Shown: positions 5,997 to 51,699 of the stretch, piece by piece
Layout: each line of letters begins with the position of its first letter
Position numbering within the stretch: the stretch's first letter is position 1
DNA from: Dactylorhiza incarnata
Taxonomy: Eukaryota > Streptophyta > Magnoliopsida > Asparagales > Orchidaceae
Assembly (NCBI GenBank): GCA_033032865.1
Contig: JAWHQI010000306.1
Location: 2,046,001-2,110,000, forward strand
Direction of reading: 5' to 3'
Length of the DNA stretch: 64,000 bases
Position numbers and translations under genes: made by a program
The notes under the pieces: model-generated
What the model was told of the DNA's origin: nothing
What the model saw: only the letters and a program-made list of their open reading frames with translations
Databases searched by the model: none

Positions 5997-7549
5997 TGTA
6001 ACGACCCCATTATTCGGCTACCGCTACAATTTTCATATTCATTTTCTTTGTCATTTAATCATCAGAGGCGCCAGGTAGAAACATTCAGTGATTAAAATTC
6101 CATGTTAGAGTACAAAAGGAAATTGCAGGATAATTAAAACAAACATTTCATTTCATTAAAACTGATGAAGTACAAAGCTAGCCCAACATTATACATACAA
6201 AAGAAGGGATTATCACAAAAGTGTAGCATATATACAAGGCTGACTCAGCCCAAAACTCATCAGAGTACACCACTATATACATACATCTAAACTACTGACT
6301 ACATAAAATAAAACTGGAACTCCTCATGAGGGCACTCGGGGTCTCTGCATCTCTCCCGATGAGCATCCAGAACTTCGAAGACTGCGGTAGAAACTTCTAC
6401 CCAGAGATGATACTTCTTTTGCTGTCGAGGAGAACATAGTGGACGAGGAGTACTGGTCGCTGGGATGGCTTCTTCCTTGACCTGTTTAGTTGCATTTTCT
6501 AATTAGTCAAAAGACTAAGCGAATTCTTATTTCCCCCCTTATATTCTTATGATAAATTCTTAGTGCATCGTTGGATCTTAAATCATTTTCTTTAGTGTGC
6601 ACTTTACTTTTTATCCTATCATTTATCGTTCACTTTACTATTTTACATTTCCCTTTTTGGCTACATACGATTGTATTCATGTATTTAACATGTTGAATAT
6701 TTTATCCCATTTCATTTTCTTTATTGGGCACTGTTAAAGATACATTGGTTTTTCATTTCATGTATTTATATAGCGCGCTTTATTTATCTGCGTGCCTTTT
6801 CATATTTGCACACATATAAATCCTTTACGTGCCTTGTCATATTCACACGTTTATTTTTCATTTCATGTTGGGAGGACATTCACCCCACCTCCACTAGTTG
6901 GGTACATCCTTAACATAGCCCATTACAATTTGCATCGATGCATTATTCATTTCACTTTTCGTATTATTTGCTTGTAACTTTAATTCATGTTCATTTCCGA
7001 GTGCATAACTGTAATAGAACAATAATAATATAGGACTTAAGCAACTGAAATTAGGGAAATAAGAACTCACCGCGGCTTTCCCTTTTCTTGGATCCCTCCC
7101 GGAATCGTCGTTGCGTTTCCCTCCTCCTTGGGATGCCATCACCTATAAGAGGAGTCATCTACATTATTTTCCATTCTAGGTGGCTTTCACTTGACCTATT
7201 TAGAGGTCAATTAAGATGCTTATGTTGGCTGCCCTAAATTTAACATAAGGGTGTTTCATCAAATTAGTGAGAGAACAACACCCTCAAGCCTCATCTTAAA
7301 TTAGAAGGAGAAAAAGACATCAAATCACAGTTACAAATTGCTGCCCTAATTTCTATGGAAGGGGGTTTTGCTCCAAATGAGGGAGCGAATACACTAGGAG
7401 TCGATTTCCAACATGAGAAACACTAGGAATTTCGGAAATCCGCATTACCTCAATTAGGGTTTCACTAAAAGTGCTTGAAATCATGGATTAACGTCAAGAA
7501 ATGCGTAATAATCCCTTTCAGAAACTTTTGACATGAAAAGGATGTCGGC
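5997..7549 (-). repeat. Truncated 3' LTR of the chromodomain gypsy
   Basis: Near-identical to 13561-15111 of the right LTR. Homology stops at acatgaaaagga. The missing portion corresponds to 15112-15641, the U3 start, together with the polypurine tract that should adjoin it. Confidence 0.85.
6299..7139 (-). CDS. LTR-encoded small Cys/His protein, two exons (3' LTR copy)
   Basis: Exon 1 (7139-7071) encodes MASQGGGKRNDD.. and 23 residues in all. A GTGAGT donor follows. The intron ends in CTAAACAG, and exon 2 (6481-6299) adds 60 residues with LWVEV, DAHRERCRDPECPH and a terminal FYFM before TAG. Both exons are phase 0, giving 83 residues that match the copy at 13863-14709 with few substitutions. 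A divergent homologue in another gypsy LTR (35742-43886) keeps the same structure. The HRExCxDPxCPH cluster could bind a metal. Function unknown; splicing is predicted from sequence only. Confidence 0.5.
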
Positions 7550-8263
7550 GACATATCGGATTGAGTTTTTAAATGTCGGATGTCGGATGTCGGAAGTCGG
7601 AGACATGTCGGGGATATTTTAAAATATCGGATTTCCGTGTCTTATAATAAAATTTTTATTTTTATGTATACTAACTATAATTATACGTTATAAAAATACA
7701 AAAATAATATAACAAATAGATAAAAAATGAGTCATTTATATTACGAAATAAAATTGAATAGTATCTGAGATAAAATATTATTAACAAATACAAAATGATA
7801 CATTGTAAAGTATATTTAATAGTATACAATAATTTTATTTTGTTAATAATAAGTTTATTGCAAACAAAGATTTAAATATTTTCGTATTTTTTGTAATAAT
7901 GTATTAAATATTTGCATATTTTTTGTAATATGAAATTAAAAAATTGTGAAACAATTATACAAAATTGGTTGTAAGAATAAAATGTTAAAAAAATCGAAAC
8001 AATAAGTTTAATCATTTTAAACATACATAATATAATATTCATATGTGATTTAAACATATGTTGTTAGTCTGCTAATATAACTTAAAATAAAATAGCGGAC
8101 GATATATTTAAAAGTCGTGTCGGCCGATATATCGAAAAAAATCGAACATGTCGGCCTATATTTTACAAAAGAACATAATCTATTTTTTTAAGAAAAACAT
8201 ATCGTTTTGCCCTAAAAAATGACATGTCGGGAGACATGTCGGACATGTCAGAGGACATTTAAA
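7550..8263. repeat. AT-rich insert with terminal TGTCGG repeats
   Basis: Both ends are rich in tgtcgg/acatgtcgg units. The left end has gagtttttaaatgtcgg, and the right end reads on the other strand as attgttttaaatgtcc, so the ends are imperfect inverted repeats. The middle (7640-8090) is very AT-rich with no gene. It lies between the cut LTR and the inverted protease fragment. It could be a non-autonomous DNA transposon, but I could not find a clear target duplication. Confidence 0.45.
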
Positions 8264-8850
8264 ACAATGGTCCTAGCCAAACACCGACATTGCATTATAT
8301 GAACACTTACAAAGGTATAGAATCAGTGACATCTGGGTCTGGAATAGAACCCAGGGAAGAAAGACAAATACATCCTCGGGTCTTTAATTTAAATCAACAA
8401 GGAGCAAAGGCTGATGATACTGTCATCACAGGTATGATCTATACTCAGAATCACTTTATGAAAGTATTATTCGATACGGGGGCTAGTCATTCCTTTATAG
8501 CGACAACAACAATTAAACATCTAATGCTGGAACCGTATCAATCGTTTAATGAATTGAGGGTCAAAATACCAAATAATACCGAAATGACTACACTGCTTAG
8601 ATGTACGTTAACAATGGATAACAAGCAAGTAGAGGCAGATGTCGCAGTCCTACCTTTATTGGAATTTGATATTATTTTGGGAATGGATTGACTATCGCAA
8701 TATGAAGCGATTATCAATTGTAAAAAGAAAGAAATTGCACTTAAATTACAGATCAGACACCGTGTATATTTAAAGGCATGAGTGAAGTCTCAAAAATTAT
8801 GATCTCCTCGATGAAGGCAATGAAGAAAATAAAAAAAGGTTGTGAAGCGT
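8264..8850 (+). pseudogene. Inverted duplicate of the gypsy protease region
   Basis: The + strand encodes [26 protein letters not shown] and FDIILGMD, then a stop replaces the next Trp. These match the minus-strand gag-protease of the same element (about 11885-12465). The DTGA active-site motif of the aspartic protease is retained, but the piece has no start, and frameshifts follow the stop. It is thus a reversed copy of about 585 bp placed 3 kb from its source. Confidence 0.8.
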
Positions 8851-8938
8851 GTGTCAATTAAGTGGGTCTGTTACAATTAAGTGGTATCAGAGCCAGGTTT
8901 TTCAATTACTGAATATGAAAATGAATATGAATAAATAT
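8851..8938 (+). other. Rearrangement junction carrying a forward primer-binding site
   Basis: Contains tctgttaca, a short spacer and tggtatcagagccagg (8881-8896) on the + strand. That is the LTR-end plus primer-site signature of this gypsy family, but in the orientation opposite to the surrounding pol. It joins directly to the C-terminal end of pol at 8939. Most simply this is the product of aberrant reverse transcription or recombination. Confidence 0.6.
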
Positions 8939-11480: not shown

Positions 11481-12598
11481 TTGATCAAATAAATCGTCGA
11501 TGCGAGGTAGGGGTACTGATTTCGAATTGTCAGCTTATTCAATTCTCGATAGTCGACACATAATCGTAATGAACCGTCTTTCTTTTGAACAAAAAGCACC
11601 GGGGCTCCCCATGGCGACGTACTTGGACGTATACAATTTTTATCCAATAATTCTTGTAATTGACTTTTCAATTCAGCCAATTCCTTAGGAGCCATACGAT
11701 ATAGTGCTTTCGCTACAGGTGCAGCTCCTTCCACTAGACTGATGGTGAACTCAACCTCTCTTATAGGAGGTACTCCTGGTAATTCCTCCGGGAATACTTC
11801 GAGGAATTCACGCACCACAGGAACTGTACTCGGTTCATACGTCACTGCACTATTCCCTTTAATCATCACTAACATCGCTTCACAACCTTTCCTTATTTTC
11901 TTCATTGCCTTCATCAAGGAGATCATAATTTTTGAGACTTCACTCATGCCTTTAAATATACACGGTGTCTGATATGGTAATTTAAGTGCAATTTCTTTCT
12001 TTTTACAATTGATAACCGCTTCATATTGCGATAGCCAATCCATTCCCAAAATAATATCAAATTCCGATAAAGGTAGGGCTGCGACATCCGCCTCTACTTG
12101 CTTGTTATCGATTGTTAACCATACGGTACATCTAAGCCTTGTAGTCATTTCGGTATTATTTGGTATTTTGACCCTCAATTCATTAAACGATTGATATGGT
12201 TCCAGCATTAGATGTTTAATTGTTGTTGTCGCTATAAAGGAATGACTAGCCCCCGTATCGAATAATACTTTCATAAGGTGATTCTGAGTATAGATCATAC
12301 CTGTGATGATAGTATCATCAGCCTTTGCTCCTTGTTGATTTAAATTAAAGACCCGAGGCTTTACTTGTCTTTCTTCCCTGGGTTCTATTCCAGACCCAGA
12401 TGCCACTGATTCTACACCTTTGTAAGTGTCCATATAATGCAATGTCGGTGTTTGGCTAGGACCTCCTCTGGTATTCCTTTCAGATACCGTCTTCCATAAC
12501 GGGCAATCTTGCTTGCGATGCCCAAGCCGTTGACATTTAAAACAAACTCCTGTTCCCTTCAAGCATTCGCCAAAATGATTTTCCCACATTTTGGACAT
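11474..12598 (-). pseudogene. Gypsy gag zinc knuckle, protease and N-terminal RT
   Basis: Carries the zinc knuckle [14 protein letters not shown], the aspartic protease [13 protein letters not shown] with [10 protein letters not shown], and the start of RT through [18 protein letters not shown]. The start codon is arbitrary: the true frame continues from 12984-12559, where CPKCGK is the first half of an upstream knuckle, interrupted by a frameshift near 12590. Confidence 0.87.
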
Positions 12599-13282: not shown

Positions 13283-13547
13283 TCGAATAGCTTCAGCTAA
13301 TGCTTGCAGAACACTTCAGTTAATGGGGGGTTTGACCTCCCAGGAATTTGTCTTTCTTCTGCCATACTATATTGTTCCCCTTCAAGTTCGTCTCTTTGTC
13401 TTCTACATACGTAAGTTCGGAAAGGTTCCTGCGACAGGAAGGTTCAATTTAGCCTTTAAACAATTACGTTTCAAATGTTAAAACTTGTTCTACTTACCCT
13501 CACATATTCTCCTTAAGTACTCATGACACACCGAAAGTTCAAACCTG

Positions 13548-13559
13548 GCTCTGATACCA
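13548..13559 (-). other. Primer-binding site of the chromodomain gypsy
   Basis: The complement reads TGGTATCAGAGC, pairing with the 3' end of initiator tRNA-Met, one base from the LTR that starts at 13561. It fixes the element orientation as minus. Confidence 0.85.
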
Positions 13560-13862
13560 CTGTAACGGCCCCATTATTCGGCTACCGCTACAATTTTCAT
13601 ATTCATTTTTTTTGTCATTTAATCATCAGAGGCGTCAGGTAGAAACATTCTGTGATTAAAATACCATGCTAGGGTACAAAAGGAAATTGCAGGATAATTA
13701 AAGCAAACATTTCATTTCATTAAAACTGATGAAGTACAAAGATAGCCCAACATTATACATACAAAAGAAGGGCTTATCACAAAAGTGTAGCATATATACA
13801 AGGCTGACTCAACCCAAAACTCATCAGGGTACACCAATATATACATACATCTAAACTACTGA

Positions 13863-14709
13863 TTACATAAAATAAAACTGGAACTCCTCATGAGGGCACT
13901 CGGGGTCTCTGCATCTCTCCCGATGAGCATCCAGAACTTCGAAGACTGCGGTAGAAACTTCTACCCAAAGATGATACTTCTTTTGCTGTCGAGGAGAACA
14001 TAGTGGACGGGGATTACTGGTTGCTGGGATGACTTCTTCCTTGACCTGTTTAGTTGCATTTTCTAATTAGTCAAAAGACTAAGCGAAATCTTATTTTCCC
14101 CCCTTATATTCTTATGATAAATTCTTAGTGCATCGTTGGATCTTAAATCATTTTCTTTAGTGTGCACTTTACTTTTTATCCTATCATTTATCGTTCACTT
14201 TACTATTTTACATTTCCCTTTTTGGCTACATACGATTGTATTCATGTATTTAACATGTTGAATATTTTATCCCATTTCATTTTCTTTATTGGGCACTGTT
14301 AAAGATACATTGGTTTTTCATTTCTTGTATTTATATAGCGCGCTTTATTTATCTGCGTGCCTTTTCATATTCGCACACATATAAATCCTTTACGTGCCTT
14401 GTCATATTCACACGTTTATTTTTCATTTCATGTCATGTTGGGAGGACATTCACCCCACCTCCACTAGTTGGGTACATCCTTAACATAGCCCATTACAATT
14501 TGCATCGATGCATTATTCATTTCACTTTTCATATTATTTGCTTTCAACTTTAATTTATGTTCATTTCTGAGTGCATAACTGTAATAGAACAATAATAATA
14601 TAGGACTTAAGCAACTGAAATTAGGGAAATAAGAACTCACCGCGGCTTTCCCTTTCCTTGGATCCCTCCCGGAATCGTCATTACGTTTCCCGCCTCCTTG
14701 AGATGCCAT
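13863..14709 (-). CDS. LTR-encoded small Cys/His protein, two exons (5' LTR copy)
   Basis: Exon 1 is 14709-14641 (23 residues, Gly/Lys/Arg/Asp-rich, start MASQGGG). The donor GTGAGT follows, then a 595 nt intron ending CTAAACAG, and exon 2 is 14045-13863 (60 residues). Joined, the frame is open for 83 residues and ends FYFM-stop. Exon 2 has KYHLWVEV, FEVLDAHRERC and RDPECPHEEF; the spaced H..C..C..H looks like a small metal site. It sits between the presumed U3 and the gag start, so it would be a leader protein of the genomic transcript. The donor and acceptor also fit the independent copy at 35742-43886. No known family recognised. Confidence 0.5.
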
Positions 14710-15360
14710 CACCTATAAGAGGAGTCATCTACATTATTTTCCATTCTAGGTGGCTTTCACTTGACCTATTTAGGTCGATTAAGATGCTTATGTTGGCTGC
14801 CCTAAATTTAACATAAGGGTGTTTCTTCAAATTAGTGAGGGAACAACACCCTCAAGCCTCATCTTAAATTAGAAGGAGAAAAAGACATCAAATCACAGCT
14901 ACAAATTGCTGCCCTAATTTCTATGGAAGGGGGTTTTGCTCCAAATGAGGGAGCGAATACACTAGGAGTCGATTTCCAACATAAGAAACACTAGGAATTT
15001 CGGAAATCCGCATTACCTCAATTAGGGTTTTACTAAAAGTGTTTGAAATCATGTACTAACGTCAAGAAATGCGTAATAATCACTTTCAGAAATTTTTGAC
15101 ATGAAAAGGAACTAAAGAACTTCAAGAAAAGCAAACCCTAGATTTACTGCCCCACTTAATCCCTGCAAAATTTCCACATAAGAGCGAAGAGGAGTGAAGA
15201 GGAAGGGATTACCTCTCTATAGAAGGAGAAATCGGAGGAGATTTGGGCTCTCGGTAGCGTGCTGTGTCGATCGCTCCCGTCCGCCTGTCGTCGGTCTCGC
15301 AGAAGGCTGGGAGAGGAAATACAAGTATCGGGATGGCTTTCTCCCCTTAAGAGAGACTCT

Positions 15361-15364
<4 letters not shown>

Positions 15365-15392
<28 letters not shown>
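15365..15392 (+). repeat. 28 bp poly-C homopolymer
   Basis: An uninterrupted run of C within the gypsy LTR. It is likely to vary in length through polymerase slippage, and it produces spurious poly-Pro and poly-Gly frames. Confidence 0.95.
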
Positions 15393-15393
<1 letters not shown>

Positions 15394-15646
15394 TATGACA
15401 CACACGCGTCTAATGAGCGTGAGTCACGCTTATGCCGATCAACCCTTGCCTATTCACTCCTATTTTTGCTAATTGCAGCCCTTGCCTATTTTTTTCTCTT
15501 AATATACTTATGTAATAAATTCAACAGAATATTTATGTCGCATATTTATTCTCTATTCTCGTCGCTTCGATGCACGCATTTCGTTCGTACATAATAGAAT
15601 ATTATTATTAAAAATATTCGTACCTCGTCGCCGACGTCACATCAGA

Positions 15647-34641: not shown

Positions 34642-36504
34642 TGTGACTCCGTCACGACGTTAGGTAATAACTAACGAATTTTATGTTCATAAATGTGCTC
34701 GCCAACGACGTCGTAAATTGAATTCTACGATAAAAGGAACAAAATAAAATTAATTAAAATACGTACTCTTTTGCTCGGATGGATTAGGGACGAAAACCTA
34801 GGGTTACTTTTTGTTGGATTTTCTCAATACTTTTATTCTTAAGGTTAAATAGAGTTTCTGAAATGAAAATCGATGCCAAAACCACCTCCCTTTCGTGATT
34901 TCGTGTAAAGGACAACAAACCCTAGGTTGGATTCTTGGATTTTTTCCATTTCTTTTGCATTCAAAAGGTTAAGAGAGTTTCTGAAAACATGTGTAATGTT
35001 GATACTCCTCCCATTTCACAAGTTTGCCCAAAAACAGTGAACCCTAATGATATAATGTCAAAATTTTCTCTGTTACGTAGTTTGGAGGAGGAAGAAGGGC
35101 TAGAATGCGTCAAATATACATATTTCATGCAAAAATTGAGGACCTTGTGGGAGGGGAAGCCAACTTTTAGTTGGATTGGGGCTCATTTTGAGAAACTAGG
35201 TTAAGTAAAACCTATATGAAGGGTTGTTAGGACGCTCCCCCTCACAATTACAGCAAAACCCCTATCCAAAATTTTAGGGCAGTCAACTTATACTTGACAT
35301 AAGACTGAAAATTTACGGAATTAGGTCATTTGAAACCTATGTGGAGACTTTACGAGGCGGTGGACAGCCGACTCGTGGCTTAAATTGAAGGAATTAAATT
35401 ATTTGACGGCTTAGGTGAACATGAAAGCAAAAATTGGGAATGTTCGGTGCAAGTAATCAGAAGCTTAAGTGTATTCCCTTGCGTCAAATAAATTGTAGGG
35501 GGTTGATTTAGGGCAGTTGACGTATTGGAGAAGGGAGAATGTGTGGACAAATTTTGTAACATAAAGAATGTCATAAATACTTCAACATACGCACATTAGT
35601 ATGCAAGCGTAGTGCATCCACCTTCTAAAGATATTCAGGATTTAAAACCCACGCAATATAACTCGTACGTAAGCGGAAAGGAATTGATAAACTACATGTA
35701 GGATGTTTCAAATTCTGATACACAATAAACTGTCGTAGGACATGGCGTCCCGCAGAGGAAGGGATAATGACAATCGCAAGGACAAAGGAAAAGTAAAGAT
35801 CTGGGTGAGTTCTTACTACTGCATTTTATTAATACTGCTTATGATATTTTAATGCTTATTTGTTTAATTGTTATAAGAACAAACACCGAAACTTTAAAGA
35901 GAACACAAATATACATTGTAATACCCTTAAATGACTAAAATGCAAAACTTGAAATAAAAGAATGACAAAAGGGAAATGATATGAATAATACAATGGGCTA
36001 TGTTAAGGGTTGACCCAACTCGTGGAGGTGAGTTGTGAATGACCTCCCATTATGAATGTTTAGATTGAGGAGTACTGATTGGACACCAATGTTAGATGAT
36101 AGCCCTGAATTTGAAAAATGTGAGTGTGTTAAACAAAAGACACGTAATAAATGAATGAATGATGAAATTTATTCTTAACATTGTCCAAATAAAAGAAACT
36201 GAAAAAGACAACGGATAATGAAATGCACACAATATGATGATTCAGTAAGGATGAAATTTAAATATGAATGCATATAATGAATAATGAAATGCTTATATGA
36301 ATGCATATATGAATGTATATAATGAATGATGATATGAATATAAGAATTGATGTACTTCCTTATTATAAACTGCTGCTGATATTTTTGTAGGGAAGATAAG
36401 AATTCGCTTAGTCTTTTGACTAATTATTTAGATATCTAAATTAATATAGGAGGACACAGTGGTCTCCGATGAGAGGAAGAAATTGCAAGTGGACGAAAGG
36501 TATC
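34642..36504 (+). repeat. 3' LTR of the plus-strand gypsy, first part
   Basis: Starts TGTGACTCCGTCACGACG right after the polypurine tract. It continues at 43777-44110 once the chromovirus is removed, giving about 2.2 kb, comparable with the 2081 bp LTR at 13561. Contains exon 1 and the start of exon 2 of the small LTR protein. Confidence 0.85.
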
Positions 36505-39500
36505 TGACGCAGAGGCAGGCTAGGGTTGGGGAGCTAGACACACTACTTGGCGAATAAAGGTGCAGAAAACCAACACGATGCAAGCTTCACAAATCCAGGC
36601 GGTTTTAAAATTAATTTTCTTGTATGATGAGTTAATTTAAGCTTTTGCGGATTCCACAAGAATGATTATCGTAATAGAAAAGGCACACAAGAGTGGCTCC
36701 AAATCGGAGAGCGCAAATAACAAATGATAAGCGGATACACCCTGCAGGTTAGCACAAACTCAAGCAACCCAAATGATATGACATGATAAACAAAGCAAAT
36801 AGCAAACTAGCAAAATAAACAATGTTCAGATCTGAAATCCAAGTGCAACTTACAATCAAAATGAGGAGCCAATCGGACGGGGGCGCCAAATGCGGAGAGG
36901 AATGGATCCGGGTATTTGGTGGCCAATGGCGGTGGGTATGGTGGCTGCGCGGAGGGAGGAAGGAGTGGTGGAGGGCTGGAAGTAGGGCTAGCGGGAAGGA
37001 GGAGGGATCTGGGATGGCCGACGGGGTAGAGGGAAGGATGGAGGGTGGTCGACGGGGTAGGGTGAAGGCTGGAGGGTGGTCGACGGGGTAGGGGGAAGGC
37101 TGGAGGGTGGTCGACGGGGTAGGGGGGGAGTTGGAGGGAGGTCGACTGGTTGTGGGGAGGCTGGGGAGTGGTCGACCGGCTGCTGGGAGGCCGGGAGAAG
37201 CTTGGTGGGGGAGGAAGAAAGGCTGGCGGTGGGCGTCGGGATGGAAGGAAAGGAAAGGGGGCTCGCCGGTGCTGTGAGGGGCAGGGGACAGGCCGACGGG
37301 GTGGAGATAGGGGCGGTAGAAGCCTAACCGGGGGAAGGCGGGATGTCGGAAGTGAGGAAGGGGCGAACGGCAGAGATCGGGAACCCTAGGCGTCGCACTT
37401 GGGGGATGTTGGCGTCGCACCAACGGACCGGCTGCAGAATCTCTCAAACATACGGTTCCTAAACCCTCCTCTTGGCTCCATATAAATAGAAAATAAAAGT
37501 TAGGGCATCCGGAATCAAGGGCTCAGATCGCCCGATCTTTCGGGTGCCAAAATAACGCCAAAACTTGTCCGAATAAGATAAAACAAAATACAAAATATAC
37601 TCTCGTCGACCTTCCGGACGCATCCACGGGCTCGGATCGTCCGGAAGGGCTCTCAAAGTACAGGATCAGAAAATCACGCCCGCTTGCGGCGGGAATATAC
37701 GTGTGTGGGCCATCGTCGCTGTCGATCTCCAATCAACTCCCCCCGACTTAGAAGCATTCATCTCCGAGGAATGGAGGTGATCATACTCTTGGCGTAGCTC
37801 GGGGGCAATCCTCGCAAGTTCTCCCGGGGCGATCCAAGTGTCGTCAAAGCTGGGACGGCCCCTCCAGTGGACCAAGTATCGCAAAGTGCTCGGATCTGCT
37901 GCTGTCATGTAGTCATGGGCTAAGATGCCCTCAATGGTCTCCAGATCGGTATCCGCCTCCGCAGGTGGTGGCTCACTCTCTAATGAACTCTCCGGTGGTG
38001 GCGCAGCCGGTGGTGCTGCCAGGTCCCCAGGCGGTATCGCTGTGGGCTGGGACTGAGAGGGGAACGGTGACAACTGGGGAAGTGGTGGCTCCAATGGCGG
38101 CTCTGAGGGAAGGGGTGTGAAAGGATCCTCATAAGCTTGCTCATCGTAGTATGGAGTCAAGTCTTCCACATTGAATACTCTGCTGATCCCCATGTGCCTT
38201 GGAATATCAATCTCATAAGCATTTGACCCTATCCTTTGCACCACCGTATAAGGGCCCATCCGTCTAGCATTTAGTTTCTTTGCAGTTCCTGAGGGGAACC
38301 TCTCAGCACGAAGACGAACCAACACCTGTGTGCCAATCTCAAAACTCCTCTCCTTCCTGTGTACATCCGCATAGGCTTTATAATTATCATTACTTGTTGC
38401 GATTTTCTTTCGGATGGACTCGTGAAGCTCATGCATGTGCTGGATAAAGGATTCGGCCGACTCACTAGGACGGGTCTCAAGTGGGAGGGGAACTAGGTCG
38501 ATCGGCTTCCTGGGTTCATACCCTAACAGGATGTGGAAGGGGCTAAGACCAGTAGTCCTATTCACCGAGCTATTGTACGCGAACTCTGCTAAGGGCAACA
38601 CTGAATCCCAAGTACACACATGCTCACCAACAAGACAACGTAGGAGGGAGCCTAAACTCCTGTTGACCACCTCAGTTTGTCCATCCGTCTGTGGGTGGTA
38701 GGCGGTGGAAAACTTGAGAGTGGTGCCAGTCTTCATCCATAGTGTCTTCCAGAAATAGCTCATGAATCGGACATCACGATCAGACACTATGGAGGATGGT
38801 AACCCGTGATATTTAAAAACTTCCCTAAAGAATAGGGCGGCAACCAGGGAGGCATCGGCCGTCTTGCGACATGGAATGAAGTGGGCCATCTTCGAGAAAC
38901 GGTCCACGACAACATAAATGGAGTCATGTTTCTTGGGTGTACGGGGTAGCCCAAGAACAAAGTCCATGCTAATGTCAACCCAAGGCCTGTGAGGAATGGG
39001 TAACGGGGAGTACAGGCCGCTGGGTTGGCGTGAACCTTTTGCCACTTGGCATGTCCTACAGTGCCTCGTCACACGCGCCACGTCCCTCTTCAGTGAGGGC
39101 CAATAAAAACGATCCTCCACTAAGGCAGTAGTCTTGTCACGCCCAAAGTGTCCAGCGGCACCTCCTGCGTGCATCTCCCAAATCAGAAAGTCGTGAAGGG
39201 AAGTGGAGGGGATGCAGAGTCGGGTGCCGAAGAACAGGTATCCCTCAGAAACAGTAAATCCCTCGATCGTATCAGGTGGGTCTCTAGTGAGGGACCTATA
39301 GATATCCCCAAAATCAGAACACTCAGCGTACTCTACGACAAGGCGCTCAAACCCAGTGACACGCGTGCTCATCGTCTGCAAGAGACTAATCCGGCGACTC
39401 AAGGCGTCGGCGGGCTTGTTATCAACACCTGCGCGGTGTTTGATAACGTAGTGATAGCTCTGCAGGAACTCTACCCACTTAGCGCGCCTATGGCTAAGCT

Positions 39501-42500
39501 TCGACTGGGACTCTAGATAACGTAAAGCCTGATGGTCAGAATACAGCACAAACTCCTTGTGTAGGAGATAGTGTCGCCAGTACCGCAGGGTCTGGACTAT
39601 CGCGTAAAACTCCCGATCATATGTAGAATATCGCTGGCGGGCCTCGTTCAGCTTTTCGCTGAAATAAGCAATGGGGTGGCCCTCCTGACTAAGTACTCCT
39701 CCAATCCCCAGTCCTGAAGCGTCACACGCGACCTCAAAGGCGAGGCTGAAATCTGGTAATCTAAGGACAGGGGCAGACGCTAGCCGATTCTTGATCTCTT
39801 CGAATGCTCTAGTGGCGGCCGGGGTCCACACGAAATCTCCTTTACGTAGACAGCTCGTAAAGGGGGCCATAAGAGCACTAAACCCGCGGACGAACCTCCT
39901 GTAGAAAGTGGCTAGTCCATGGAAACTCCTGGCCTCATGGATGGTGGTGGGAACGGGCCACTCGCGGATAGCTCTCACCTTGTCGGGATCTACGGAGATG
40001 CCCGACGCCGAAATAATGTACCCAAGGAAGTGCACAAACTCAGCTAGAAAATCGCACTTCTTCATGTTGATAAAGAGGTGCTCCCTCCTGAGGACGTCGA
40101 ACATCAAACAGACGTGATGTAGGTGGTTAGTACGCTCCTGGCTGTAAATAAAAATGTCGTCGAAGTACCCAACTAGGAACTTGCCCATGTAGGGCCGCAG
40201 GACCTGGGTCATCACCCGCATGAACGTACTGGGGGCGTTCGACAATCCGAAGGGCATCACTAGCCACTCGAATAGGCCATCCTTCGTCTTGAAGGCCGTC
40301 TTCCATTCATCTCCCTCACGGACTCTAATCTGGTGATACCCTCTCCTAAGGTCGATCTTCGTGAAAATACGGGCACCAGCCATAGCGTCAAGTAAGTCGT
40401 CGAGGCGGGGAATCGGGAAACGGTATTTCACTGTGATCTTATTGATGGCTCTACTGTCAACGCACATGCGCCAACTCCCGTCCTTCTTCGGGGTGAGAAG
40501 GGCTGGGACTGCGCATGGGCTCAAGCTCTCGCGCACAAAACCCTTCCTAAGTAACTCATCGACCTGCCGCTTCAGCTCGGCATGCTCGGTCGGACTCATA
40601 CGATAGTGTGGGAGGTTGGGCAAAGATGCCCCAGGCACGAGGTCGATCGCGTGCTGGATATCTCTCAGGGGAGGAAGTTCATCGGGAAGCTCCTCGGGCG
40701 TGATATCCGTATAATCTCTCAACAGTCGCTGTGCATCAGGGTCAGTGGGGACGACACCTCCACTAGGAGTGTCGGGAGCCAAGGTGGCCGCTACAATGAA
40801 TACAATCCCCGAGTCTAGGCCCTCTCTCATAAAATCATGCATCCTCAGTATGTGCAGGGGCCTGGGGGCCCGGCACTGGCGGGGGAATCGGTCTTGCCCT
40901 TGGATGAGTCCTTGGGCTGGGTCGGGGACAAGGTGATCTTTCGGCCCCGGTTGTAGAATACGCATGTGTTCGATCGCCCAAAACACGTAACGTCTCGATC
41001 ATACAACCAGGGTCGACCTAGGAGTACATGGGCCACGTCCATCGGTATGACATCACACCAAACCTTGTCCTCGAAGGACGCTAACCGCAATGGCACTAAG
41101 CATCGCTGGGAGACCTGGATAGCAGATTTGTCCACCCATAGGACACGATAGGGATGAGGGTGTGGCTCAGGGTGAGCTGTATCCGCTCAAGCGCCTTCTT
41201 AGCAACGATATTAACGCAACTCCCACCATCAATAGCAAGTTTGCAGGGGCCGCCTGCACTCTGAAAATAAGTGTAAAAGATGGTGGACCGACGCCAGTCA
41301 TCCTCCGCACGCGGGGTATGCAGAAGGCGGCGTATAACCCCACACTCTAGCAACCTCTCTGCATCGCTCTCCCAATCCTCATCCACGGTGGCTACAACAT
41401 CGCCCTCAATCCCCACTATAGGGTCCATACCCTCGTCCTCCTCATCCTCAATCAACAAGTTCCGCATAGGGCACTGTGCCGCATAATGACCTCGTCTAGA
41501 ACATCTGTAACACTGAGGCCCGCTGGGCTTGGAGGGTCCAGTCATAGCAACCTTCCCTTTCGCATCCTCAGAAGCCTGAGAGTGGGGAGGAGTGGGCCTC
41601 CTGAATGTGGGGCCATCAGTCCTCGGAGGCTGCTGGCGGGAGCCAGTGGTCCGAAGGTAGAGTTCATACTCTAGGGCCAACTCATAAATCTGCTCGACTG
41701 TCTCTCGGCGGTGGGGAATCAGTTCCCTCTTAATTTCGGGTCTCAGGCCGTTCCGGAACCTGGACGCTGCGGCGCTGCCCTCCTCTCGCAGGTCACTCCG
41801 CACTAATAGGTCATCGAATTTGGTCATATATTTGGCTACCGACAACGTGCCCTGTCGTAGCGCATAGACCTGATCTAGCAGTCGATCACGATAAGAATCG
41901 TGGAGATATTTCTCCTTCAGGCGTCTCTTCATATCTTCCCACCTAATGATGGGTCGATGGCCATCACGCTCAAGGGCTCGCTCGACACTAGTCCAATAAT
42001 TCATAGCAGATCCCACTAATTTTATCCGTGCGAGTCTAACCTTACGCTCATCACTCATATCATACCAATCAAAGTAATGCTCCATCTCTCGAAGCCAATC
42101 ACTAAACGCTCTGGGGTCCTGCTGACCATCAAAAGAAGAAACCTCTAAGCGAACTCGGCGAGTGATGTCATCGTGGTAACCGTCGTAGCGGTCGTGACGG
42201 CCGTGGTCGTGTCGATCTGGCACGGGATCTCCTGGGGCTTCATAACCATAATCAGGGGGCCCTGGTTGTCGTCGGGGGCGACGGCCAGGATTGGGGTGAT
42301 CCCCTTGACCTTCATAATTATCTTGACGTACCCGAAGTTCATTAATTTGGGTACCCATTTGGTCGAATCGCTCTAGCATCAAGCGCTGGAGGTCTGCGAG
42401 GGACACCTCCGCGTTGGTGCCATTGGACCGCTCACCGGTAACGTTTGGGTCAGACATATCTCGTCGAAAATGCCTACCACTACGTCACATACGAAGTGCG

Positions 42501-43886
42501 ACAACCTCGCTTTGATACCAATCTGACGCAGAGGCAGGCTAGGGTTGGGGAGCTAGACACACTACTTGGCGAATAAAGGTGCAGAAAACCAACACGATGC
42601 AAGCTTCACAAATCCAGGCGGTTTTAAAATTAATTTTCTTTTATGATGAGTTAATTTAAGCTTTTGCGGATTCCACAAGAATGATTATCGTAATAGAAAA
42701 GGCACACAAGAGTGGCTCCAAATCGGAGAGCGCAAATAACAAACGATAAGCGGATACACCCTGCAGGTTAGCACAAACTCAAGCAACCCAAATGATATGA
42801 CATGATAAACAAAGCAAATAGCAAACTAGCAAAATAAACAATGTTTAGATCTGAAATCCAAGTGCAACTTACAATCAAAATGAGGAGCCAATCGGACGGG
42901 GGCGCCAAATGCGGAGAGGAATGGATCCGGGTCTTTGGTGGCCAATGGCGGTGGGTATGGTGGCTGCGCGGAGGGAGGAAGGAGTGGTGGAGGGCTGGAA
43001 GTAGGGCTAGCGGGAAGGAGGGATTTGGGATGGCCGACGGGGTAGAGGGAAGGCTGGAGGGTGGTCGACGGGGTAGGGGGAAGGCTGGAGGGTGGTCGAC
43101 GGGGTAGGGGGAAGGCTGGAGGGTGGTCGACGGGGTAGGGGGGAGCTGGAGGGAGGTCGACTGGTTGTGGGGAGGCTGGGGAGTGGTCGACCGGCTGCTG
43201 GGAGGCCGGGAGAAGCTTGGTGTTGGAGGAAGAAAGGCTGGCGGTGGGCGTCGGGATGGAAGGAAGGGAAAGGGGGCTCGCCGGTGCTGTGAGGGGCAGG
43301 GGACAGGCCGACGGGGTGGAGATAGGGGCGGTAGAAGCCTAACCGGGGGAAGGCGGGATGTCGGAAGTGAGGAAGGGGCGAACGGCAGAGATCGGGAACC
43401 CTAGGCGTCGCACCTGGGGGATGTTGACGTCGCACCTGAGGGATGTTGGCGTCGCACCAACGGACTGGCTGCAGAATCTCTCAAACATACGGTGCCTAAA
43501 ACCTCCTCTTGGCTCCATATAAATAGAAAATAAAAGTTAGGGCATCCGGAATCAAGGGCTCAGATCGCCCGATATTTCGGGTGCCAAAATAACGCCAAAA
43601 CTTGTCCGAATAAGATAAAACAAAATACAAAATATACTCTCGTCGACCTTCCGGACGCATCCACGGGCTCGGATCGTCCGGAAGGGCTCTCAAAGTACAG
43701 GATCAGAAAATCACGCCCGCTTGCGGCGGGAATATACGTGTGTGGGCCATCGTCGCTGTCGATCTCCATCAGTATCGCTTGTGGGTGGAAGTGACTATGT
43801 CTATGCTCAGGATGCTGGAGACTCACCGGGAGTGCTGCAAGGATCCAGACTGCCCACATGAGAGTTTAAAGTTTTATTTTATGTAG
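35742..43886 (+). CDS. LTR-encoded small Cys/His protein, divergent copy split by a chromovirus
   Basis: Exon 1, 35742-35804, encodes MASRRGRDNDNRKDKGKVKI plus W, then GTGAGT. Exon 2 starts after ATATAG at 36450 and runs to 36504; the chromovirus (with its gtatc duplication) intervenes, and coding resumes at 43777 to the stop at 43884-43886. Skipping the insertion keeps the frame: 21 + 54 residues. Exon 2 has RYRLWVEV, LETHRECC, KDPDCPHE and FYFM-stop, paralleling KYHLWVEV.., HRERCRDPECPH and FYFM of the other family member. The frame was open until the insertion although pol of the same element is full of stops. Function unknown. Confidence 0.5.
36505..37735 (-). repeat. 3' LTR of the chromovirus, with 31 bp G-rich tandem repeats
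   Basis: Starts TGACGCAGAGG and ends CTCCAATCA. Around 37020-37130 a 31 bp unit containing ggagggtggtcgacggggta repeats three to four times (gtcgac sites 31 bp apart). The Pro-rich minus frame 37447-36749 is probably compositional. Confidence 0.92.
37666..40986 (-). CDS. Chromovirus pol: RT, RNase H, integrase, chromodomain
   Basis: Up to 1106 codons, with true coding starting around residue 40 (PRPLHILRMHDFMREG). The end of the protease region is followed by RT (FVRESLSPCAVPALLTPKKD, FTKIDLRRGYHQI, WLVMPFGLSNAPSTF, and YFDDIFIYS as the catalytic box), RNase H (EVACDASGLGIGGVLSQ, YSDHQALRYL, NKPADALSRR), integrase (HCRTCQVAKGS, SMDFVLGLPRT, VSDRDVRFMSYFWKTL, YHPQTDGQTEVVNR, GPYTVVQRIG) and the chromodomain (EGILAHDY, YLVHWRGRPSFDDTW). 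The last residues run through the polypurine tract (KSGGV) about 70 bp into the LTR. SDRDVRF has Val where Gly is usual. The enzyme copies the RNA genome and integrates it. Confidence 0.92.
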   Translation of the reverse strand: MFWAIEHMRILQPGPKDHLVPDPAQGLIQGQDRFPRQCRAPRPLHILRMHDFMREGLDSGIVFIVAATLAPDTPSGGVVPTDPDAQRLLRDYTDITPEELPDELPPLRDIQHAIDLVPGASLPNLPHYRMSPTEHAELKRQVDELLRKGFVRESLSPCAVPALLTPKKDGSWRMCVDSRAINKITVKYRFPIPRLDDLLDAMAGARIFTKIDLRRGYHQIRVREGDEWKTAFKTKDGLFEWLVMPFGLSNAPSTFMRVMTQVLRPYMGKFLVGYFDDIFIYSQERTNHLHHVCLMFDVLRREHLFINMKKCDFLAEFVHFLGYIISASGISVDPDKVRAIREWPVPTTIHEARSFHGLATFYRRFVRGFSALMAPFTSCLRKGDFVWTPAATRAFEEIKNRLASAPVLRLPDFSLAFEVACDASGLGIGGVLSQEGHPIAYFSEKLNEARQRYSTYDREFYAIVQTLRYWRHYLLHKEFVLYSDHQALRYLESQSKLSHRRAKWVEFLQSYHYVIKHRAGVDNKPADALSRRISLLQTMSTRVTGFERLVVEYAECSDFGDIYRSLTRDPPDTIEGFTVSEGYLFFGTRLCIPSTSLHDFLIWEMHAGGAAGHFGRDKTTALVEDRFYWPSLKRDVARVTRHCRTCQVAKGSRQPSGLYSPLPIPHRPWVDISMDFVLGLPRTPKKHDSIYVVVDRFSKMAHFIPCRKTADASLVAALFFREVFKYHGLPSSIVSDRDVRFMSYFWKTLWMKTGTTLKFSTAYHPQTDGQTEVVNRSLGSLLRCLVGEHVCTWDSVLPLAEFAYNSSVNRTTGLSPFHILLGYEPRKPIDLVPLPLETRPSESAESFIQHMHELHESIRKKIATSNDNYKAYADVHRKERSFEIGTQVLVRLRAERFPSGTAKKLNARRMGPYTVVQRIGSNAYEIDIPRHMGISRVFNVEDLTPYYDEQAYEDPFTPLPSEPPLEPPLPQLSPFPSQSQPTAIPPGDLAAPPAAPPPESSLESEPPPAEADTDLETIEGILAHDYMTAADPSTLRYLVHWRGRPSFDDTWIAPGELARIAPELRQEYDHLHSSEMNASKSGGVDWRSTATMAHTRIFPPQAGVIF
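40845..41135 (-). pseudogene. Chromovirus protease, C-terminal part, out of frame
   Basis: A 96-codon frame, DKSAIQVSQRCLVPLRLASF, then DVIPMDVAHVLLGRPWLYDR and KITLSP. This is the second half of the gypsy aspartic protease (LLGRPW flap-end motif), between the gag frame and pol frame. A frameshift at about 41110-41150 cuts it from gag and another near 40870 from pol. The two shifts may be mutations in this copy; adjacent homopolymers were not conspicuous. Confidence 0.8.
41096..42457 (-). CDS. Chromovirus gag and start of protease
   Basis: 453 codons from MSDPNVTGERSNG. Contains a coiled-coil-like LADLQRLMLERFDQMGTQIN, the gag core VSSFDGQQDPRAFSDWLREM, WEDMKRRLKEKYL, the zinc knuckle CYRCSRRGHYAAQC, and a protease start KLAIDGGSCVNIVAKKAL (D-G-G in place of D-T/S-G, as in a subset of plant gypsy elements). 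It ends in about 15 off-frame residues. The start lies some 50 bp from the primer site. Confidence 0.92.
   Translation of the reverse strand: MSDPNVTGERSNGTNAEVSLADLQRLMLERFDQMGTQINELRVRQDNYEGQGDHPNPGRRPRRQPGPPDYGYEAPGDPVPDRHDHGRHDRYDGYHDDITRRVRLEVSSFDGQQDPRAFSDWLREMEHYFDWYDMSDERKVRLARIKLVGSAMNYWTSVERALERDGHRPIIRWEDMKRRLKEKYLHDSYRDRLLDQVYALRQGTLSVAKYMTKFDDLLVRSDLREEGSAAASRFRNGLRPEIKRELIPHRRETVEQIYELALEYELYLRTTGSRQQPPRTDGPTFRRPTPPHSQASEDAKGKVAMTGPSKPSGPQCYRCSRRGHYAAQCPMRNLLIEDEEDEGMDPIVGIEGDVVATVDEDWESDAERLLECGVIRRLLHTPRAEDDWRRSTIFYTYFQSAGGPCKLAIDGGSCVNIVAKKALERIQLTLSHTLIPIVSYGWTNLLSRSPSDA
42524..43771 (-). repeat. 5' LTR of the chromovirus
   Basis: 1248 bp. Compared with 36505-37735 it has an extra 22 bp tandem copy near 43415-43445 (cgtcgcac..gggatgttg unit) and the same 31 bp G-rich repeats at about 43040-43140. 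Confidence 0.92.
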
Positions 43887-46995: not shown

Positions 46996-47211
46996 GTTAC
47001 CAAGATGGACTCCATTTGGGTGTTACTATCGTGTGTGGCATGTCTTTGGTGGGACCTACTAGAGTTAGACGTTAAAAACATTTTTCATCATATGGAGTTA
47101 GAAGAGGTCTACATGAAGCTTCCACCTAGTTTTTCCTAAGAAGGGAATGTTTTTCATATCAAGCAATCCATATAAGTTTGAAGCAATCCCCCGGAGCTTG
47201 GTTTTGACGTT
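46996..47211 (+). pseudogene. Old copia pol (element V), RT part 2
   Basis: Continues 44562: KMDSIWVLLSCVACLWWDLL, ELDVKNIFHHMELEEVYMKL and then SPGAW. It is cut within the AWF motif by the Athila/Tat-like insertion and resumes at 58295. Confidence 0.8.
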
Positions 47212-48820
47212 TGATGCGCAAAACTATATCCCCAAACGATAACGACAAGTGTACCGTATCGAATGTAGTATAGGTTCGTAGAAAACCAAGGTCGTATTAG
47301 ACTTGGGGCGGTTGAGTACTCTTACTTCAAGAAAATCTCTATTATTTTATCAATTAGAAGTTTAGGATTTGGTTTTTGCACTAAAGAGAGAAGAATTAAA
47401 ATAAAGAATAAAAAGGACGATTAACACTCGATCTTTGAATCACCTTGGAGATAAAAATAAGAAGAAAGAATAAAATCACATTCTCTTAATAAAACAGCTT
47501 TGACCGTGGAGATTCCCGAATTGTGAACGTACCTTGGGTCGAGGTTACGCCCAACTAAGATTAGGAAATATCAACCGAATTCTCATTCTATAGTCGATAA
47601 CCTAATACTCGCTTTACGAGGTGAATCCCGCTATTGGCTTTTACTCCAATCCGGAAGGGTAACGTCGTCCTCTCTCGAGGATTGCATTCTACTCTTCTTT
47701 ATTCTTGAGTGATCGATTCGTTTTACGAGCCTCTCGGCTAACTAAAGAACGAAAACAAGAACGAGAATTATATATCGAAAATATAATCTCGTAATCTTAA
47801 AATCAAGGATAAATTTTAAGCTTTTTAGAAAAGAGAAAAAGCAATTCTAAATTATTTCAAAACTTTTATTATTCCTTGGATCATCTCGATCGAGTACTAA
47901 TAATATTTTAGTTACTCATGGAGATGGAGGAATCAAAAGAAATAAAAGAATACATGAAGAAGGAAGAAGAGAATGAGAGAATTAAGAACTATTTTATTAA
48001 TTGATGCAAAGAGAATTACAAACTAAGAATTGAAACTTATAACTATTAAATTGAAAATTACGAATGCTAATAAGAATAAGACATACAAGAGCTCCTAAAA
48101 ACATGAAAATAATACAAGAAATGAAATGTCTAATCCTAAAATTCGTCCCAAAAATTCGTCTCTAAACATCTGCTGGAGCTGGCTTTATATAGCTGCAAAT
48201 TTGAGGTTACACGCCCTTGGTTACGCCCGTGACCAAGGGGCGTGTAAGGTGCGTGATCGAAGCAGCAGCGGAGAGGGCGCCTTCTGGAGTAATTGCTGGC
48301 ATTACGTGTGTGTCACGCCCTGGGGGCGTGTAATCTTTAAATCTGCTGCTGGCGGGAAAACTTCGGCGGGAAGGAGCGCGGGGCGAGTCACGCCCGTGAA
48401 CTGATGTCACGCCCCATGGTCACGCCCGTGACTTGGGGCGTGTAACTTTAACTGACGTGGCAGGCGTGTTCTGGGAGCAGGAGGCGGGTCATGGCCGTGA
48501 CCATTGGTCACGCCCCCAGGTCACGCCCGTGACCTAGGGCGTGTAACTGTCGAATCTTCACGGAATGCTCCCGGGTAACGGAAACAGGTCTGGAACACCT
48601 CTAGGCTGTCACGCCCCTTGGTCACGCCCGTGACCTTGGACGTGTACTTGTAAATTTCGTCCAAAATGTCCAGAAAACCTAAAAATATAAGATAAGCCTA
48701 AGTTAGACTATAGAATTGAAAAGATTATTAATTAAATGAGAAAAACATAGAAACTATATAATTTCATATTAAAAATACATTAAACTTATACTAAAAGATG
48801 AGTATATAAATCACTCATCA
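47212..48820 (-). repeat. 3' LTR of the Athila/Tat-like element, with hairpin modules
   Basis: 1609 bp, TGATGCGCAAAAC..AATCACTCATCA. Five palindromic modules lie at 48207-48247, 48313-48333 (short form), 48407-48445, 48508-48546 and 48609-48647, each built on tcacgccc, a core ggtcacgcccgtgacc, and gggcgtgtaa. Confidence 0.88.
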
Positions 48821-48841
48821 AATACCCCCATTCTTGAGCTT

Positions 48842-50204
48842 TTGCTATTCCAGAGCAAAAGAATGAGAAAAGAATTATAAGAAATCGATATTATTTTTAA
48901 TTAACCAAAATTTGATTAAACCAAAAGTAAGTTAAAAGTAAATTCCAGGAATTCAAGAATTAAGTCATAAGTTATGGTGATAATTTAAAAAGAGAAAAAT
49001 ATTTAGCTAAGTACTTCGCAAGATAACTATTTAGCAAACAAAATTATAGAAAATTTCAAACAAAAATAGATTGAAATTATAAACACTTTAACATAAAAGA
49101 AACTTAAGGAAAAGACACCTACCAAAATATTGATCTCTTAATAATTTAGTTTAGGTCTAGAAACATTGAAATTGGCTAGGGATGGGTTTAACGAAATGGC
49201 AAACTGAAGAGATACACTTAAAGGTGATGAATTTTATCGTCTCACCTACGAATTTATATATGTTTAGGAAAATAATGAATTTTATTCTCTTATTTTCCAT
49301 GATATATAATCTTTTTTAAAATCTCTTCGATCAAAAACCCAAAATGTATATGTTTAGATGTAATGAATTTTATTCTCTTACATCGTGACATAATCTTTTA
49401 AATGATTTTGGGTGCATATGTTTAGGAAATAATGAATTTTATCCTCTTATTCCCATGACATATGATCTTTTTCTACATTTTTTTTTATTTGCCAACAAAG
49501 GGTGAGGGTAAAGAAATACTTCTAGTTTATAAATTAAACTATTTTGAGAGCAAACTTTTTAGTGGAATGAAATTTTCCAAGATCTTAAAGTTAAAAGAGA
49601 ATATAATAGAAATCTAGAGATGTTTAGCCAATTTACCACAAAGTGAAGTTATTTAAAATTAGACGGAGAAGTAGTGCTAAATGAATTCTCTAATTGAATT
49701 AAAAACATAAAGTGTTTCTTAAAACTAAATTACATCAAATTTAAATTTAACAAATTCTGATAACACAAAAAAATTAGCTAAATTAAAAATGTAAGAATAC
49801 TTATAATCAAACCTCAAACTAAATTTCTAGAAACTAAAAACAGCAAGGCTAGGCGTATTTATTATTATTATTTTCATAAATATTATTTCTTGGACTTCCC
49901 GAGGGCTACCCGGTGAAGGGTTCGCAAGGTACTAGGAGCTGTGATGGGAGTTCAAGCCCAAAGCGCCCTTTCCAAGAAATTAAATTTTTATTAAATTATA
50001 AAAAAAAAATTCAAATAAAAATACAGTGAACGCAAAGCTACACCCCCATACTTAAAATTAAACATTGTCCCCAATGTTTAAAACTAAGTATGAAGAACAC
50101 TTGAAAAATAAACTTTAAAAGAAAAATACATAAAATTAAAGATAAGCAAGGGATGCCTCTCAAGAGCGCTTTTTTTTTCCGTCTTTAAGCTAGACGATTA
50201 GGGG
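48842..50204. other. Non-coding interior of the Athila/Tat-like element
   Basis: Very AT-rich with no recognised domain. Around 49200-49470 a unit (gcatatgtttagg..aatgaattttat..ctcttat) recurs about three times. The block agggctacccggtgaagggttcgcaagg.. at 49910 recurs at about 51495. Confidence 0.5.
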
Positions 50205-51360
50205 TTAGCTAAAAGGAAATTTAAATTGGAAATGGACAGGTAACTCCCTTAATTCACGCGTAGGTGAATGTGCCGACATCAGTCGCCCGGCTATTCCTCC
50301 GCTTAATGTGTGATTCTCCGTTTGTCGTTGTACTTGAATATGCAAATCCAAATCACTTATACATACCTGAGGTGATTTGAAAATATAAAGATGAGCGACA
50401 TATGGATCATCAATTAATTGGGGTAGCAACGACTCATCTTCAACATGAAAATTATTAGTATATAGATAATCACAATTAAACGTGCCAGAAAATTTTTCGC
50501 AAGGAGGAGGTGCTTGCGAAAATATATGATTAAGCTCCGGTTGTTCCTTTTCTAAAATAAAATTTTCTTTTGAAAAATTTAGTGCATTACCAAGTGGAAT
50601 AAAATTTTCGGACACTAAATTTTCATGAATTTTTGGTTGAATAGAAGAGATTTGCGAAAATTCATGACAAAGAAAAGAAGATCCGGGTGAAGTAGGGGAA
50701 GAAACTTGTTCTTCTTCTAGTTCATCCGGGGTACCCACAACATGAAAATCTTGGCAAGAAAATTTTTCTTCATCTTTGGTAAAAGAAGTTATGAGATTAC
50801 ATGAAAGCACATGTTCCTCCATAACTAAATTATCAAAGGATGGAGAAAAAACACTAGAAGAAGTAAAATTCTCCTCTACATTTTTGGGGAAAGTATTAAA
50901 TTGAATCGGTGGAAATTCCCCAAAATTAGTGAAAAAATTGCGGCGCATAAGAAGAAGAATAAAAATTTGGATCTAAAGATTTTTTTTCACCGCTCTGAGA
51001 ACTATCCGGGTGAGCTTGCCACCAAGAATAATCTACTTCGGAGCTAGAAGAACAATTATTAAACGCTGAAAAATTATTCTCATGAAAATTAGAAAAAACA
51101 TTTTCATCAAAGTTTGAAAAATTATTTTCATTAAAAGAGGAAATATTATGATCGTAACTATAATCAAGATTATTTGCATAATATTGAGGAAAATTATTTT
51201 TATAATAATTATTTTGAGAATATGAATGTAAATAACATTCCTCACTTTGATGAGGTGCACCACAATAATAACAACTAATTTGGCGTTTTCGTGTGGCTTC
51301 CAAAAGATTAACTTGGTTTTGAAGCTCAGCAACTTTTACGGCAAATTCAGATAACTTCAT
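50205..51360 (-). pseudogene. Gag-like protein of the Athila/Tat-like element, one frameshift
   Basis: Frames 51360-50926 (144 codons) and 50948-50205 (247 codons) join in a TTTTTT run at about 50935. One T too many separates QFFH-stop from the continuing frame (RNFFTNFGEF). The N-terminus has a short coiled-coil-like segment (EFAVKVAELQNQVNLLEATR), then CYYCGAPHQSEEC, a knuckle of the C-x2-C-x3-H-x4-C form common in Athila/Tat gag. An Asn/Phe/Ser-rich region with repeated ENNFSNF-type units follows, then an acidic Glu/Ser-rich C-terminal part. No protease or RT follows. Confidence 0.6.
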
Positions 51361-51676
51361 TTAATAAAATAAAAAGAGAACAACCTTCACTTAAATGAAT
51401 GGAATTTTAGAGAATAATTATAATATATAAAAAAATATTTATATAATAATTTTTTTTCAAAAAACGGGTTAAGTTTGTCCCAAACTTCCCAAGGTCAACC
51501 CGGTGAAGGGCTCGCAAGGCACTAGAGGCTGTGATGGGAATTCAAGCCCAAAGCGTCCTTTCCGAGAATTTAAATTACGTCTTTTAATTTATTTTTTAAA
51601 AATTTTTAAGAGAAGGGGGAGAAGAAAGAGAACGATAAAATTAATAGATATTTCTTTTTTCGAAATATCAACCGTG

Positions 51677-51699
51677 TTCCCCGGCAACGACGCCAAAAA
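51677..51699 (-). other. tRNA-Asp-type primer-binding site
   Basis: The complement reads TTTTTGGCGTCGTTGCCGGG, next to the LTR that begins at 51702. Other elements in the window use TGGTATCAGAG. Confidence 0.75.

Follow-up and report, generated by a model that had tools for sequence, protein, structure and literature searches.

A small, probably spliced gene under selection within the LTRs of an orchid gypsy retrotransposon family

The long LTRs of plants are generally interpreted as promoter and terminator sequence. The locus described here raises the question of whether such an LTR can also hold a gene of its own: in the window (the whole 64-kb stretch of Dactylorhiza incarnata DNA that was analysed), the LTRs of two related retrotransposons, termed E1 and E2, contain a short open reading frame that continues, in phase, beyond a putative intron. 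The first-pass annotation had proposed that this frame encodes a leader protein made from a spliced RNA upstream of gag. Our reading, to which we assign a probability of about 0.6, is that the LTRs of an abundant, chromovirus-like gypsy family hold a complete small spliced gene, kept by selection, for an accessory and probably regulatory protein.

E1 is a Ty3/gypsy LTR retrotransposon with an LTR pair, a TSD, a primer site and, by Pfam, the domain order PR-RT-RH-INT. The full 5′ LTR (13561..15641, minus strand; 2081 nt) starts with TGTGACG and ends with GTTACA, and directly inside it lies a primer-site-like TGGTATCAGAGCCAGG, which we take to be of the initiator-Met type. The 3′ LTR (5997..7532, minus strand) lacks its 5′ part, follows foreign and inverted sequence and exhibits 96.7% identity with the 5′ LTR over 1552 aligned columns. 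The TSD, TCTGA, is located outside both LTRs. Placement of the exons inside the LTRs by the first-pass annotation was correct, while its LTR boundaries were not: the 5′ LTR is longer, running from 15641 to 13561, and the 3′ LTR is truncated (at about 7532). The integrase region matched Pfam SH3_Tf2-1, with no Chromo match at 1e-3; we take its C terminus, by eye, to resemble a group II chromodomain and presume the family to belong to the Tekay/Del chromovirus clade. An inverted copy of the protease region (8269-8849, compared with 11876-12463) was detected between pol and the 3′ LTR, adjoined by a reverse-complement primer site near 8880-8905; as the TSD is nevertheless intact, a chimeric cDNA may have inserted. 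An AT-rich foreign piece ahead of the 3′ LTR (7543-8290), with CCGACATG-type repeats at both ends, is possibly a small transposon, and a run of 28 G residues occupies 15365-15392 in the upstream part of the E1 LTR.

E2, located on the plus strand, is related to E1; over 2049 columns, their pol sequences are 73.6% identical at the nucleotide level. Its 3′ LTR begins near 34642, after a purine-rich tract, and no second E2 LTR was found within the 64-kb window. This LTR is split by a third LTR element, flanked by a 5-bp duplication, GTATC. The insert is a gypsy element (36505-43771) with long open gag and pol frames, 31-bp tandem repeats in its LTRs and a weak Chromo match (E = 2e-4) that falls below the cut-off. 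Elsewhere in the window, a pair of repeats (47211-52711) that are 95% identical over ∼1 kb and lie 4.5 kb apart are probably LTRs.

Both exons are present within both E1 LTRs. In the 5′ LTR, exon 1 (14709-14641, minus strand) consists of 69 nt, or 23 codons starting MAS, and is followed from position 14640 by GTGAGT; the GT-AG intron (14046..14640, minus strand) comprises 595 nt; and exon 2 (14045-13863, minus strand), in phase after CAG, has 183 nt, encoding 60 codons and a stop, with the sequence KYHLWVEV...HRERCRDPECPHEEFQFYFM. The corresponding exons of the 3′ LTR are located at 7071..7139 and 6299..6481 (minus strand) and are separated by an intron of 589 nt. The layout in E2 is the same: exon 1 (35742..35804, plus strand) has 21 codons, and exon 2 is divided by the inserted element into a first part (36450..36504, plus strand), which extends through the GTATC duplication, and a second part (43772..43886, plus strand), which begins in the other copy, such that the two parts, each with its own GTATC, keep the same phase across the insert. 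On re-reading, these exon coordinates were as first annotated in E1 and E2. The G+C content in E1 is 0.57 and 0.47 in the exons compared to 0.31 in the intron; exons richer in G+C than introns are usual in plants. Downstream of exon 2, a putative 3′ untranslated tail (13700..13862, minus strand) contains AATGAAATGAAA, a poly(A)-like signal that is also found in E2 (19 of 21 bases in common).

Most of the LTR can no longer be aligned between E1 and E2. The alignable parts were an island within the intron, the branch-point region, exon 2, the poly(A)-like stretch and some weaker upstream pieces. Comparison of all 103 stop-to-stop frames of the E2 LTR with the E1 LTR ranked exon 2 as the best match (E = 7e-17, 58 bits; next frame, 29) and exon 1 as the fourth. 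The exon 2 score was reached by none of 20,000 column shuffles and the exon 1 score by 5 of 20,000, the latter in a protein-level alignment that favours exon 1. A dN/dS ratio of 0.30 was obtained for exon 2 (Nei-Gojobori, 37 codons; bootstrap range, 0 to 0.77, with 11 of 2000 replicates at or above 1), compared with 0.12 for pol (620 codons, stop codons skipped), in which synonymous change was near saturation. The stops that the first-pass annotation had reported in E2 pol were indeed present; its argument that the LTR frame had stayed open despite them proves little by itself, because the LTR gene is a small target.

Searches of the plant's own genome (3.27 Gb) with the exon 2 protein yielded 1191 first-look candidates. 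Among the best 150, which were scored, 12 contained one stop, and 20 same-strand pairs of matches were spaced 6.1 to 7.8 kb apart, as expected of LTR pairs. Thirty loci were read, ranked by protein similarity, a choice that lowers the pN/pS of exon 2. Exon 1 was found in 25 of these, with the ATG retained in 24 and GTGAGT in 24 of 25, and was in phase in 23 of the 24 loci retaining GTGAGT; the acceptor AG was present in 26 of 30 (in L038 with a 3-nt offset). Statistics for exon 1 refer to 24 of the 30 loci, as five had no detected exon 1 and one, L015, of odd length, was left out. With the second part of E2 exon 2 as the query, 1036 candidates were obtained, and the best 150, with identities down to 54%, included four with a stop; many were the same E1-type copies. 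In 30 loci read from this search (E2 included), the branch motif (≤4 substitutions) was found in 20, the intron island (≤2 substitutions) in 14 and exon 1, by a strict pattern, in only 3. As ranking by protein favours conserved copies, a further set was chosen with the part of the LTR that follows the gene, its tail, as the query. This query gave 517 candidates, and in the best 40, two of which were the LTRs of E1 itself, exon 2 was uninterrupted in 30, had one stop in 5 and carried a frameshift or deletion in 5. Thus, the frame was not broken in most copies.

Within 35 of the 40 tail-selected copies, which were chosen regardless of the exon (of the other five, four were uninterrupted and one had a stop), the pN/pS of exon 2 was 0.16. 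Simulated neutral change gave 0.71, and the 28-copy comparison made in the same analysis as this simulation omitted L012, L034, L036, L038 and L039. The first-pass annotation had predicted a coding frame, and the observed ratio was not near the value of 1 that would speak against one. Mean pairwise differences at codon positions 1, 2 and 3 were 2.67, 2.59 and 9.63 for the 35 copies. An exon 2 tree of these copies was constructed with FastTree and no outgroup, and changes were placed by parsimony. Internal branches carried 8/6/45 changes at positions 1/2/3 (P = 2e-11 versus uniform) and terminal branches 30/29/31 (P = 0.97), a significant difference (Fisher P = 8e-7). Similar counts were obtained when identical rows were merged and the copies from the window removed (29 rows; internal, 5/5/38; terminal, 32/28/35). 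An earlier count (internal, 16/7/52; terminal, 29/29/32) came from a tree rooted with E2, in which E1/E2 divergence could partly count as internal change; hence, the recount without an outgroup is the one relied on. Internal branches represent transposing generations, and terminal branches mostly represent decay after insertion. As the excess at third positions is restricted to internal branches, selection acts in the life cycle of the element and not on each host locus. The reading frame is therefore under purifying selection in transposing copies and decays neutrally after insertion.

Exon 1, which played no role in the choice of copies, had a pN/pS of 0.30 in 24 copies, and E2-type copies had a pN/pS of 0.35 (27 of 30 kept, being stop-free and matching E2 at 18 or more of 37 residues). 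Ten LTR pairs exhibited 15 synonymous and 26 nonsynonymous changes (pN/pS, 0.45). Without the doubtful pair L059/L060, the value was 0.29 on 26 changes, below neutral, perhaps because both members of each pair had ranked high in the protein search. In the E1 pair, 9 of 11 changes are synonymous, and this was at first taken as selection; given the 15 synonymous and 26 nonsynonymous changes of the ten other pairs, and as LTR pairs are expected to diverge neutrally after insertion, the case was not rested on E1, whose LTR pair may be recombinant. In L059 and L060 (C2089), probably the LTRs of one element, codon 4 of exon 2 is a stop, and the exon 1 sequences differ. The shared stop suggests that a broken copy may have moved, so that elements may be able to do without the gene or obtain its product in trans.

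Do the sequences between the exons behave as an intron? In the ten LTR pairs, GTGAGT was conserved in 20 of 20 LTRs and the acceptor AG in 19 of 20. Splice-site scores ranked the E1 donor 4th of 114 and the acceptor 3rd of 137 within the LTR; those of E2 were not the best in their LTR, at 7th of 93 and 9th of 101. The mean p-distance among 24 introns was 0.0975, falling to 0.025 to 0.036 beside the acceptor, and a branch-point-like motif, CTTAGTCTTTTGACTAATTA (14064..14083, minus strand), is common to E1 and E2. A 21-nt form of this motif with one free base matched the genome 355 times at one mismatch or fewer, and its reversed control not once. The intron island (14433..14494, minus strand; AATGGGCTATGTTAAGG...) has 84% identity between E1 and E2 over 64 columns and a p-distance of 0.033 in 24 copies; it is thus retained both between divergent elements and among copies, with neither coding nor folding evident. 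RNA hairpins were considered for the island and for a TTAGTC-TTTT-GACTAA motif and rejected, as folding z-scores were only −0.5 to −1.7; for these elements, sequence conservation alone is claimed.

No intron-less E1-type copy was detected in the genome within 3 mismatches of the exon-exon junction, using a probe that fitted 42 of 50 loci in a local control. The genome-wide E1-type junction search thus gave no genomic trace of splicing, and spliced RNA, if made, is not the template for new LTRs. A close exon 1/exon 2 pair in a second, oppositely oriented copy at L018:510-980 was rejected as a spliced copy: an internal deletion has removed most of its intron but left the donor, and its exon 2 is open.

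A third, 5′ untranslated exon (15213..15350, minus strand; its start is a guess) is likely to precede exon 1. Its donor GT at 15212 was retained in 26 of 30 copies with letters at this position, whereas the 96 GT/AG sites of the leader were on average retained at a frequency of 0.45. An acceptor-like TATAG lies 3 nt before the exon 1 ATG, and its AG (14714-14713) was present in 31 of 31 aligned copies. Together, the conserved donor and this TAG suggest such an exon; of the two, the donor carries more weight, since the sequence around the ATG is conserved in any case. If the exon is real, its intron would contain upstream ATGs.

The predicted protein, of ∼83 residues, would begin with a basic stretch and end in helices that bear a His-Cys-Cys-His cluster. 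Structure prediction for exon 2 (three sequences; mean pLDDT, 80) gave helices at residues 18-44 and 52-58 joined by a loop, around which H41, C45, C50 and H52 are situated. In tail-selected E1-type copies, H41 and C45 were conserved in 35 of 35, C50 in 34 of 34 with letters and H52 in 34 of 35; each of the four was kept in 24 to 27 of 27 E2-type copies. Zinc binding by these residues, also suggested in the first-pass annotation, is a reasonable guess. No solved fold matched the exon 2 prediction at E ≤ 0.001, and the weak hits, to a protein of the large ribosomal subunit, had E values of 2.6 or worse.

Could this conservation arise without a spliced gene? If it resided mainly in a DNA or RNA element (a promoter or a signal for packaging or dimerisation) that can be read as protein by coincidence, conservation of the noncoding intron islands would be accounted for; however, these have no significant fold, the sense frame of exon 2 scored 139 between E1 and E2 versus 32 to 70 for the other five frames, and the codon-position pattern on internal branches (8/6/45) leaves this explanation close to refuted and, in our judgement, scarcely credible. 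A selected product might alternatively be made without splicing, for instance from short leader ORFs controlling gag translation. The leader is full of ATGs: there are 66 from the guessed start at 15350 to gag, in which case the gene would lie in R, and 17 after 13820, which would form the leader if genomic RNA started, again as a guess, at a TATA-like site after exon 2, with the gene in U3. Nevertheless, no in-frame ATG occurs near the start of exon 2, and the E2 frame opens only after the acceptor, being closed just upstream by the acceptor's own TAG, so that it is enterable by splicing alone. Furthermore, constraint on the amino acid sequence is seen in both exons, 23 of 24 loci with GTGAGT keep exon 1 in phase, and amino acid selection over ∼80 residues exceeds the needs of a regulatory uORF. 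We consider an unspliced product improbable.

The plant-like intron would be explained if the element had captured, and spread, a host gene that still serves the host. The protein-database search found no relative of the LTR protein, while the pol control in the same database gave 7995 (many plant ones among the 120 listed), a negative result that is tempered because spliced LTR genes are seldom annotated. Pfam, NCBIfam and PDB contained no relative above cut-offs, and the evenness of codon positions on terminal branches indicates that single loci are not maintained; with the genome search bearing on this point confined to its best-scoring matches, we regard host capture as very unlikely. There is more to be said for a spliced, selected gene whose protein is structural, as part of the virus-like particle: the basic exon 1 and Cys/His cluster give a composition seen in small nucleic acid binding proteins. 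Against this, the gene forms no part of the polyprotein but sits in the LTR, and we judge a structural role to be rather unlikely.

The spliced accessory gene is the explanation that we prefer. As reconstructed from sequence features, it would comprise an upstream promoter, a probable 5′ untranslated exon, exon 1, the intron, exon 2 and a plant-type 3′ end. Host splicing would join the exons on a short transcript polyadenylated within the same LTR, and unspliced RNA would serve as the genome. The message may be a separate short LTR transcript and not, as first annotated, the same RNA upstream of gag. The protein would act as an accessory, probably regulatory, factor that binds nucleic acid, exports or packages RNA, or helps to evade host silencing; that it acts on nucleic acid or on silencing is a guess. 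If the LTR is a self-contained gene, full elements carry two copies and a solo LTR would keep one. A doubtful but possible extension is that hundreds of such intron-bearing genes could supply a trans-acting regulator or shield independently of gag-pol, with intron retention marking replication-competent RNA and the conserved intron elements linking splicing to packaging. Were a selected, probably spliced gene present in hundreds of LTR copies, the length and conservation of plant LTRs would partly reflect hidden coding. Annotation in which LTRs are masked and ORFs are called as single exons would overlook such genes, and they raise the question of how a retroelement retains an intron in a region that is copied via RNA.

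How does this gene compare with known systems? Weak Pfam matches fell below cut-offs and were dismissed, and Rfam gave no match to positions 13500-15200. No relative of the LTR protein was found in viral contigs, prokaryote contigs, plasmids or phages; as the viral contigs held no pol relative either, these negative results carry little weight, and ten 17-mer matches in prokaryote contigs were taken as chance. Retroviruses have accessory genes in or overlapping the LTR, namely, MMTV sag and lentiviral nef. These genes are from animal retroviruses; the LTR gene, both exons of which lie inside the LTRs, would resemble them in location if a protein is made from it, and we know of no intron confined to the LTR in either sag or nef. 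The first-pass annotation knew of no described family, and this holds for the open-access literature and the libraries that were searched: no gene inside a plant LTR was recognised in the accessible text of that literature, in which such wording, where met, was used otherwise. The accessible parts of a Del survey (PMC4029996), a reference survey (PMC6317226) and an LTR classification (PMC11656987) mention no gene within the LTR. Additional, conserved non-gag-pol ORFs are common in plant LTR retrotransposons, mostly without known domains (PMC7264820); in the accessible text they occupy the internal region, with none in an LTR, and the gene described here differs in location.

The LTR gene differs in position and length from the additional 5′ ORF of Tekay elements, which in sunflower has ∼400 aa and reportedly lies outside the LTR, between the 5′ LTR and gag. 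Such ORFs occur in sunflower Tekay 13-2, maize Tekay, Sorghum Sb7 and rice Retrosat-2, and the sunflower ORF, present in 500 of 523 group-2-like copies, encodes 402 aa, is largely disordered, has a nuclear signal and is described as 5′ of gag-pol (PMC11728184). They give chromoviruses an extra protein 5′ of gag-pol to which no function is assigned, as the LTR gene would in its chromovirus-like family; compared by description only, the LTR gene differs from the sunflower ORF in its size (∼83 versus 402 aa), its intron and its position inside the LTR. Coding within a chromovirus LTR is shared with CRM and some Reina elements, in which the gag-pol ORF runs into the 3′ LTR (PMC3605345); theirs is the end of gag-pol, whereas the LTR gene is separate, with its own intron. 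Ogre, a plant gypsy element, has a spliced intron, which is outside the LTR, between the gag-protease and RT-RH-integrase frames (PMC6317226). The nearest parallel for splicing is the barley copia element BARE, in which one LTR has two promoters and a spliced RNA with alternative splicing is produced (PMC3735527), but that RNA encodes Gag, and its intron is drawn in gag-pol and not in the LTR. For an added function, the nearest parallel is an orchid gypsy element carrying an RNA demethylase (PMC9289625).
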